Assembly: GCF_014251375.1 (NCBI RefSeq)
Contig: NZ_CP059187.1
Coordinates: forward strand, 186,001-250,000
Direction: 5' to 3'
Length of the DNA stretch: 64,000 bases
From: Blattabacterium cuenoti
GTDB lineage: Bacteria > Bacteroidota > Bacteroidia > Flavobacteriales > Blattabacteriaceae
Position numbers and translations under genes: made by a program. This document shows positions 22,817 to 47,585 of this stretch, piece after piece; the stretch's first letter is position 1, and the number at the start of each line of letters is the position of its first letter. A model generated the notes under the pieces. The model did no database searches. It was not told where the DNA came from and saw only the letters and a list, made by a program, of their open reading frames with translations.

Positions 22817-22850
22817 AACGGAAAAGGCCTCCTTTTCCGTTATTATTTTT
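22817..22850 (+). terminator. Intrinsic terminator after the lipoprotein gene
   Basis: A perfect 11-bp stem (AACGGAAAAGG at 22817-22827 with CCTTTTCCGTT at 22831-22841) closes a 3-base loop and is followed by ATTATTTTT. It is the clearest Rho-independent terminator in the window and separates the lipoprotein gene from pdhB. Confidence 0.88.
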
Positions 22851-22874: not shown

Positions 22875-23864
22875 ATGAAGAAAATGAAAAAAATGACCTT
22901 TCGAGAAGTAATAGCTGAAGCGATGAGCGAAGAAATGAGAAGAGATGATTCCGTCTATCTCATGGGAGAAGAAGTCGCTCAATATAATGGAGCTTATAAA
23001 GCTTCTAAAGGAATGCTAGATGAATTTGGCCCCAATAGAGTTATTGATACACCTATCTCAGAATTAGGATTTTCTGGAATAGGAGTGGGTTCTGCTATGA
23101 ATGGATGTAGACCTATCATTGAATTTATGACATTTAATTTTTCTTTGGTAGCAATGGATCAAATTATTAATAATGCTGCAAAAATACGTTATATGAGTGG
23201 AGGACAATGGAATATACCTATTGTTTTTAGAGGGCCAACTGGTTTTGCTGGCCAATTAGGTGCAACACATTCTCAATCTTTTGAAAGTTGGTATGCAAGT
23301 TGTCCAGGATTAAAAGTTGTAATTCCATGTAATCCCTATGATGCAAAAGGGCTATTAAAATCTTCCATACGAGATAATAACCCAGTTATTTTTATGGAGT
23401 CAGAACAAATGTATGGAGATAAAATGATGATTCCAGAAAAAGAATACATTCTTCCTATTGGAAAAGCAGATATAAAAAAAGAAGGAACTGATATAAGTTT
23501 AGTTTCTTTTGGAAAAATCATGAAAATGGCTTTAAGTATAGCGAAAAAATTAGATAAAGAAAATATTAGTGTAGAAGTAATAGATATTCAAACTATTCGT
23601 CCGTTGGATTATAAATCTATACTTTTGTCTGTAAAAAAAACTAACCGATTAGTCATTTTAGAAGAATCTTGGCCGTTTTCTTCAATAGCATCTGAAATTT
23701 CATATATTATACAAAAAAAAGCGTTTGATTATCTAGATGCACCTATTAATAGAATCACGATTCTTGATACCCCTGCTCCTTATGCTTCCAATTTAATTAA
23801 AGCTTGGTTTCCCAATGAAGAAAAAATAATAAAAGCCATTAAAGAAACTCTTTATATATTCTGA
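22875..23864 (+). CDS. pdhB: Pyruvate dehydrogenase E1 component subunit beta
   Basis: This subunit joins E1 alpha to decarboxylate pyruvate with thiamine diphosphate and feed acetyl groups to lipoyl E2. Signatures are MGEEVAQYNGAYK, the DTPISELGFSGIGVGSAM stretch, FRGPTGFAGQLGATHSQSFE and ILDTPAPYA near the end. Length (329) matches the family. The start may be the first (22875) or a nearby Met at codons 4 or 7. It stands apart from any E1 alpha or E2 gene here, so the partners must lie elsewhere. Its end is 19 bases from convergent metF. Confidence 0.95.
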   Translation: MKKMKKMTFREVIAEAMSEEMRRDDSVYLMGEEVAQYNGAYKASKGMLDEFGPNRVIDTPISELGFSGIGVGSAMNGCRPIIEFMTFNFSLVAMDQIINNAAKIRYMSGGQWNIPIVFRGPTGFAGQLGATHSQSFESWYASCPGLKVVIPCNPYDAKGLLKSSIRDNNPVIFMESEQMYGDKMMIPEKEYILPIGKADIKKEGTDISLVSFGKIMKMALSIAKKLDKENISVEVIDIQTIRPLDYKSILLSVKKTNRLVILEESWPFSSIASEISYIIQKKAFDYLDAPINRITILDTPAPYASNLIKAWFPNEEKIIKAIKETLYIF

Positions 23865-34910: not shown

Positions 34911-35768
34911 TTAAAGTATTATTTTTTCTATCGGGAGCACTAATATATCTTGAGCTCCAAGTGCTTTTAAATTTTCTATTATTCCCCAAAAATCATTTTC
35001 ATTTACCACAGAATGTACAGAACTACATTTTGAATTTGCTAAAGGAAGGATCACGGGACTTTTAATTCCGGGAAGATAAGAGATTATTTTTTCTAGTCTT
35101 TCATTAGGAACGTTTAAAAGAATATACTTGTTATTTTTTGCTTTTTTAACGGCTCGTATTCTAAATAATAATTTGTCCATTATAATACTTTGTGGATTAC
35201 CTAAATGAAGATGAGATGCTAAAACAGCTTCTGATTGAAGAATTGTTTCTACTTCTTTCAATCCATTCATAAACAATGTAGAACCACTGCTTACTAAATC
35301 GCAAATGCAATCAGCTAAACCTATTCCGGGGGCAATTTCTACAGCTCCAGATATTTCATGAATTTCTGATTGAATGTATCTTTTTTCAAAAAATTCCTTT
35401 ACTAAAAAAGGATAACTTGTCGCAATTCTCTTTCCATCTAAATCACTAAGATCATTGTACATAATAGATTTCGGAACAGCTATAGAAAGTCGACATTTTC
35501 CAAATCCTAAAGTTTCTTTAATTTGTATCTTTTTTCTTTTCTCTAGAAGAACATTTTTTCCTACTATTCCTATGTCAGCTACTCCATCTTCTAAATATTG
35601 AGGAATATCATCGTCTCTTAAAAAAAGAATTTCCAGTGGGAAATTAAGAGCTGTTGTTTTCAATTTATCTATCCCAATATTTACCTCAATGCTGCAATCT
35701 TTAAGCAACTTTATAGAGTCTTCATAAAGACGCCCTGATTTTTGAATAGCTATTTTAAGTTTCTCCAT
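34911..35768 (-). CDS. hisG: ATP phosphoribosyltransferase, long form
   Basis: HisG starts the histidine pathway by joining ATP and PRPP. This is the long form (285 residues): the catalytic domain begins KLKIAIQKSGRLYEDS and contains the PRPP loop with ISGAVEIAPGIGLADCICDLVSSGSTL-type text (GIGLADCICDLVSSG), and a C-terminal ACT-like domain (about 210-285) provides histidine feedback in the family, so no HisZ is needed. It is the first gene of hisGDCBHAF(IE); a terminator-like hairpin lies 24 bases before its start. Confidence 0.97.
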   Translation of the reverse strand: MEKLKIAIQKSGRLYEDSIKLLKDCSIEVNIGIDKLKTTALNFPLEILFLRDDDIPQYLEDGVADIGIVGKNVLLEKRKKIQIKETLGFGKCRLSIAVPKSIMYNDLSDLDGKRIATSYPFLVKEFFEKRYIQSEIHEISGAVEIAPGIGLADCICDLVSSGSTLFMNGLKEVETILQSEAVLASHLHLGNPQSIIMDKLLFRIRAVKKAKNNKYILLNVPNERLEKIISYLPGIKSPVILPLANSKCSSVHSVVNENDFWGIIENLKALGAQDILVLPIEKIIL

Positions 35769-35780
35769 GACAGATATAGG

Positions 35781-35823
35781 AAAAAAAATAACAAAAGCTT
35801 ACTTTCTTGTCTTGTAAGCTTTT
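35781..35823 (-). terminator. Terminator-like hairpin in the hisG leader (attenuator candidate)
   Basis: On the minus strand a perfect 10-bp stem (35823-35814 with 35802-35793, arms containing AAGCTT) encloses an 11-base loop and is followed by GTTA and eight T (35788-35781). It has the form of a Rho-independent terminator, but ends only 12 bases before the hisG ATG at 35768 and lies downstream of the likely his promoter. That placement suggests attenuation. No His-rich leader peptide is visible. Confidence 0.65.
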
Positions 35824-35860
35824 TATTAACATCTAGATTTTTAATCATGCTGCATTACAG

Positions 35861-35868
35861 CAAATATA
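35861..35868 (-). promoter_or_regulatory. Putative his operon promoter -7 box
   Basis: TATATTTG on the minus strand, an exact TAnnTTTG match, about 93 bases before hisG and upstream of the leader hairpin. Transcription would start near 35853. The -33 region reads AGTTTA, a poor TTTG. Confidence 0.45.
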
Positions 35869-46946: not shown

Positions 46947-47585
46947 GATTCATGATTTAATTTATGTATGGTGTTTTTTACATGATGAAAAAGTTCTCAG
47001 TAAAACGTGATGAAGTAAGTTTTTTTTATTGTTTTAACGACCAATACAAAGCAACCATACAACATTGGTTCTTTCTTATTTCTTTCTTACACTTACTTAT
47101 ACTTATCTTAATTTTCACTCATCACTCACTAGCCCTAGAAAACTAGTAGCTAGAGTTAGCAGCACTACTACTTATTAATTGTTATACTACTACTCTTTTA
47201 CTCTTTAGTTAGTCTTACTTTCTATCTATCTACCAGAACTAACTAATAAATAAGAAGATAGACCCGATCCCCTCTCTCTCTACCTACTCACTCCTCTAGC
47301 CTGCCTCTATAGGATAGGAACGGAACTACTCATACAAACAACACCACACTCCATGTACGACGATTACGTACGTACGACGCATAAAATAAAATTAAAAGTT
47401 AGTTTTTTATATTTATTAGTTTAGTTATAGTTGTTTATCTTACTTTATGATCTAGTGTACTAACTAGGTATTAGGTATAGTACTAAACAAAAATTAGTAG
47501 AAGAAGAAATGATATCAAATACAAATATAAATAAATTTTTCATATTTATTTTATTTTTATGTAATATAGTATGATTCAAATTACT
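46947..47585. other. Gene-free segment of unusual composition between trpE and the porin gene
   Basis: This 639-base gap is by far the longest in the window. From 47101 to 47380 I count 109 G+C in 280 bases (39%), against 12 in the next 60 (20%). It holds seven CTAG sites (47129, 47135, 47143, 47150, 47296, 47452, 47464), a C/T-rich tract with CT, CTAT and ACT repeats, and an 8-base direct repeat GTACGACG (47355-47362, 47372-47379) around the palindrome TACGTACGTA (47365-47374). No convincing gene, tRNA or known RNA is seen. A minus-strand TATATTTG (47522-47529) could start a long trp leader. Confidence 0.7.

Follow-up and report, generated by a model that had tools for sequence, protein, structure and literature searches.

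The hairpin upstream of hisG in Blattabacterium is probably a decapitated attenuator, that is, the terminator half left over from an ancestral his attenuator, which is kept by purifying selection and now works as a fixed, leaky terminator. Its descent from the leader-peptide attenuator of Bacteroidota his operons appears very likely. Genome comparisons demonstrated purifying selection on the promoter, the hairpin and the U-rich tail, as well as the loss of the His-rich peptide in this genus. Endosymbionts are commonly portrayed as having plainly lost attenuation. In the present case the sensor is gone, yet the hairpin has stayed near-unchanged across 49 Blattabacterium genomes, while its trp counterpart is decaying. 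Together with their relatives, these genomes form a natural series that runs from the whole switch (free-living species), through a possibly part-decayed form (a family member with a 1.3-Mb genome) and the sensorless hairpin of Blattabacterium, to its loss (L108 and, apparently, smaller family members); such a series would make testable the question of how, in the absence of regulation, the genes for nutrient provisioning are set. No paper dealing with attenuators or terminators in Blattabacterium was retrieved in literature searches. Buchnera aphidicola, which likewise lives as an obligate symbiont of insects, makes essential amino acids and has no leader peptides, has been stated to lack both leader sequences and attenuation systems (PMC3091783); Blattabacterium differs from it in retaining a conserved terminator half.

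The hairpin and its setting upstream of hisG

The window analysed was a stretch of 64,000 nucleotides from a Blattabacterium chromosome of 639,840 bp. Among named HisG proteins, the closest to that of the window belongs to B. cuenoti strain EUPOLsin (96%). Reading along the minus strand, the exact promoter box TATATTTG (35861–35868), which corresponds to the Bacteroidota sigma-A −7 box of the his promoter, is followed by a 37-nt spacer, the hairpin (35823–35793), GTTA, a run of eight T (35788–35781), 12 nt, and the ATG of hisG at 35768. The hisG gene (34911–35768), recognised from its ORF and its relatives, is the first of the his operon. The hairpin arms, defined by their sequence and by their conservation in the genus, are AAAAGCTTAC (5′ arm, 35814–35823) and GTAAGCTTTT (3′ arm, 35793–35802), and they enclose an 11-nt loop, AAGACAAGAAA (35803–35813). 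A sequence-only reading of this DNA had described a perfect 10-bp stem and an eight-T run 12 nt before hisG, downstream of an exact promoter box, and both its coordinates and its description were right. A terminator-like hairpin with a U tract thus lies between the promoter and the first structural gene, which is the layout of an attenuator; as a candidate intrinsic terminator it has a perfect 10-bp stem (35823–35814/35802–35793) containing only three G-C pairs, a predicted stem-loop energy of −9.1 kcal/mol, and the T-rich tail GTTATTTTTTTT (35781–35792), which includes the eight-T run. The whole leader was predicted to fold at −22.7 kcal/mol, versus −14.4 ± 2.7 kcal/mol for dinucleotide shuffles (z = −3.0). 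The terminator scan missed the hairpin because it permits loops of at most 8 nt.

The promoter scan used was of the E. coli type, which is ill-suited to Bacteroidota. The sigma-A box of Flavobacterium psychrophilum promoters occupies positions −12 to −5 (PMC9723704); applying this spacing to TATATTTG places the predicted his transcription start at ∼35856, which would render the ATG of a mini-ORF specifying Met-Gln-His-Asp-stop (35841–35855, minus strand; ATG at 35855) essentially leaderless. No position of the box underwent more than three parsimony changes among 48 genomes, and AAAATAGTT-N-TAnnTTTG is likewise found upstream of hisG in free-living Flavobacteriales. A gene for Rho was found in the window genome. 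Covariance models of Rfam 15, including those of the proteobacterial his leader and the T-box, gave no cis-regulatory match at gathering score near hisG.

Conservation of the hairpin within Blattabacterium

The conservation of the hairpin in relatives, which the sequence-only reading had put forward as a check, was analysed in 49 Blattabacterium genomes, all of which contain hisG. The pattern AAGCTTAC-N(2-25)-GTAAGCTT was exact in 45 of them, present once in each and invariably directly before hisG, while the reversed pattern used as a control gave no match in the 49 genomes; the conservation is therefore far beyond chance. Since the arms are single-copy in each genome, a repeated element or a regulon-wide motif was ruled out. 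Three of the four remaining genomes (L118, L119 and L121) carry altered hairpins that can still fold (−12.1, −10.6 and −10.8 kcal/mol, respectively); in L118 one C seems to be gone from each arm of the core, a longer outer stem compensating for it. Only L108 lacks the hairpin (fold of −3.0 kcal/mol). With some form of it kept in 48 of 49 genomes, and letter-perfect in 45, something still depends on the hairpin. For comparison, hairpins were ranked over the 64-kb window, and the strongest other intergenic terminator-like hairpin (22817–22841) was found with its exact sequence in only 1 of the 49 genomes. That hairpin, AACGGAAAAGGCCTCCTTTTCCGTT (plus strand), has a T-rich tail and stands just upstream of a transketolase-family gene (22875–23864); its exact arms are unique to the window genome within the genus.

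On a tree of 48 genomes, the 16 core stem positions accumulated two parsimony changes (the L118 gaps being uncounted), against a mean of 10.1 changes at 62 four-fold sites of hisG, none of which was unchanged; exact counts are approximate since the tree was built from hisG alone, but the contrast is very large. In 100,000 resamples of 16 four-fold sites, no sum fell below 72. The loops, in contrast, came in 24 distinct versions among the 48 genomes and ranged from 4 to 15 nt, which renders a fixed-geometry DNA operator unlikely. The T-rich tail that follows the 3′ arm is partly constrained (1–8 changes at most T positions), unlike the outer flank of the 5′ arm, which has evolved at the neutral rate (9–17 changes) except for the bases adjoining the core. 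This one-sided constraint fits a terminator acting in the direction of hisG, although a U-rich stretch ahead of a start codon could serve translation too.

Relationship to the his attenuators of free-living Bacteroidota

A set of 113 hisG leaders from free-living bacteria, 40 from several families of Flavobacteriales and 73 of the Chitinophaga type, was used for comparison. Every one of them encodes a short His-rich peptide (at least three His). A terminator hairpin was found in 39 of the 40 Flavobacteriales leaders, and a hairpin of the form GCTTAC...GTARGC in 61 of the 73 Chitinophaga-type leaders. Blattabacterium shares with these attenuators the TAnnTTTG promoter, the terminator-like hairpin and the T run before hisG, as well as, in part, the GCTTAC/GTAAGC core of the Chitinophaga-type leaders; since this core is not universal in Flavobacteriales, homology of the hairpin rests partly on its position. 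The differences are that Blattabacterium has neither a His-rich peptide nor a detectable antiterminator, and that its stem has only three G-C pairs: three free-living terminators fold at −16.8 to −20.1 kcal/mol, versus −9.1 kcal/mol for the hairpin of the window strain. Leader-peptide attenuation ahead of amino-acid operons has been reported for F. psychrophilum (PMC9723704). The earlier proposal of an attenuator-like element between a Bacteroidota-type promoter and hisG was right, and the comparison adds its very probable descent from a full attenuator, which is still present in free-living relatives.

Within the same family, the 1.3-Mb genome L130 showed by eye a leader ORF with one His, followed by a AAGTTTGC/GCAAGCTT hairpin and a T-rich tail before hisG; it is a possible intermediate in the decay of the attenuator. 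A comparable hairpin was not seen by eye in the more reduced family members L131–L134.

The anatomy of these leaders suggests that, in the ancestor, transcription from the TAnnTTTG promoter would have produced a leader RNA encoding the His-rich peptide, ribosome stalling at its His codons deciding between antiterminator and terminator. In Blattabacterium, RNA polymerase would start near 35856 and produce a leader of ∼75 nt; part of the polymerases would halt at the U run while others would continue into hisG. In this way the element would set a fixed share of his-operon transcription with no response to histidine, and the hairpin may lower transcription like an attenuator locked in one state. 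This explanation is further supported by the foldable hairpin still present in three of the four genomes with non-exact arms, by the paired changes in the outer stem of L109, L115 and L126, and by the parallel of a peptide-less terminator before trpE (see below).

Alternative roles for the hairpin

Two features count against a terminator role. The stem, given its energy and its three G-C pairs, is weak for a terminator, and the sister genomes L112, L115 and L126 have the stem but not the distal T run. It is mainly because of these three genomes that a second explanation was retained, in which the hairpin would be a non-terminating stem-loop of the 5′-UTR, with a role in protecting or processing the his mRNA or in holding the start region of hisG open. 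In L115 and L126 the stem has in addition been extended by a paired A-T to G-C change common to both (positions −4/+4; another such change, at −5/+5, is present in L109). Even so, all three genomes still have five T among the first eight bases past the core, the T-rich tail is constrained too in most genomes, and the ancestral element was a terminator, so that a stability or processing role is rather unlikely to be the explanation.

The sequence-only reading had held that the hairpin should be conditional, since a full terminator would block the operon. This claim found no support. Neither a constitutive terminator that leaks nor a hairpin for mRNA stability would require a condition, and the genus has no conserved leader ORF. 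A leader ORF with at least three His was present in just 1 of the 49 Blattabacterium leaders, and that ORF runs into the hairpin. No antiterminator was found either: leader segments paired with either arm no better than those of shuffled leaders did, perfect contiguous helices being considered. The two parts that define a leader-peptide attenuator, an ORF with His codons and antiterminator pairing, are thus both missing from the Blattabacterium leaders as searched. On the other hand, the same reading had doubted that the classic leader-peptide model would apply, and it was right to do so for the window strain, in which the Met-Gln-His-Asp frame is unconserved.

In a conditional attenuator without a peptide, the choice between stop and read-through would fall to a protein, to a polymerase pause sensitive to nucleotides, or to some other signal. 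The arms are near-invariant while the loop and the spacer vary (the distance from box to hairpin spans 24 to 134 nt across the genus), as if the sequence of the arms were recognised. However, alternative pairing no better than chance, the absence of an Rfam cis-regulatory match, and a loop of 4–15 nt that excludes a fixed-geometry dimer site all argue against it; no candidate regulator is known, and we regard such an attenuator as improbable. The broader idea that the his (and trp) attenuator has turned into a peptide-independent regulator, its invariant arms being read by some factor or by an RNA-polymerase-based mechanism, is only slightly less doubtful. Were it true, an obligate symbiont thought to be without amino-acid control would still tune its histidine output.

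A minimal peptide, Met-His-stop or, in the window strain, Met-Gln-His-Asp, might still sense His-tRNA. Met-His-stop (ATGCATTAA) is the first leader ORF in 18 of the 49 genomes and lies directly past the predicted transcription start. Its ATG, however, is replaced by ATA in several genomes, and is ATA or absent in many; the G of the mini-ORF ATG changed 13 times on the tree, which is at or above the neutral rate, and the distance between box and hairpin is far from constant. As a genus-wide sensor the Met-His peptide was ruled out because its ATG is unconserved, and any sensing by such minimal peptides is very improbable.

Inversion of the loop and invariance of the arms

The loops of close relatives are often exact reverse complements of each other (TCTT/AAGA, AATATA/TATATT, AAAAA/TTTTT). 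When each of 45 genomes was compared with its nearest neighbour, the loop was the same in 10, flipped in 10 and different in the other 25. Among the loops compared (L082–L129), flips are seen for example in L110/L111, L112/L115 and L086/L087. Plastomes show a small-inversion flip-flop of this kind (PMC6824564). These flips suggest that arm-mediated rearrangement occurs at the his hairpin, which makes it more striking that no paired change was seen inside the core stem, where pairing alone would permit them. Selection therefore seems to act on the sequence of the arms and not on the structure only, as the absence of paired core changes hints, although these may be absent since, with three G-C pairs, the intermediates would be too weak.

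Template switching between the arms, rather than selection, could maintain a perfect repeat, and the loop flips indicate that rearrangement of this type takes place. Template switching would nevertheless keep the arms complementary without freezing their sequence, and the copying of mutations would generate paired changes, which the core lacks; from the genomes compared, invariance of the arm sequences refutes it as the sole cause, and it is an exceedingly improbable explanation. Equally improbable is an alternative named by the sequence-only reading, that the hairpin ends read-through transcription from tRNA-Lys, antisense to xth. In each of the 49 genomes tRNA-Lys precedes the hairpin on the hisG strand, but at a distance of ∼930 bases; the hairpin is separated from xth by the conserved his promoter, and the homologous terminator of the relatives is tied to hisG. 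Synteny itself is uninformative, since the tRNA-Lys/xth/hisG order is kept throughout.

The terminator of the trp leader

The state in which the terminator is kept and the peptide lost is not unique to his, since trp leaders show it as well. In free-living species, trpE leaders commonly encode WWW peptides and carry a terminator such as AAAGGCTTGTCATTCACGACAAGCCTTTTTT. Among the loci scanned, two free-living trp loci matched the Rfam family RF01692 (Bacteroid-trp), whereas that of Blattabacterium L189 did not. A strict pattern, AGGCT(T/C)GTC-TTT-stem-T5 without runs of Trp codons, was present in 18 of 30 Blattabacterium trpE leaders; several of the remaining ones carry variants or have lost the trp terminator. 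The Bacteroid-trp leader follows, at another operon, a logic equal to that proposed for his, and its terminator core persists in many Blattabacterium trp leaders, but not in that of the window's strain. The his hairpin is the stricter case of the two.

The trp terminator kept by many Blattabacterium (AGGCTTGTC...GACGGCCT-T7) has been lost in the window strain from the region before trpE (46947–47300, minus strand). The trpE gene itself is apparently lost in G001, G026, G041 and G043, and apparently broken in G015; G001, G041 and G043 belong to the clade in which the T run at his, or the hairpin altogether, has disappeared. Further upstream of trpE, the window strain has odd low-complexity sequence (GATAGATAG, AGTAGTAGT, GAGAGAGAGG).
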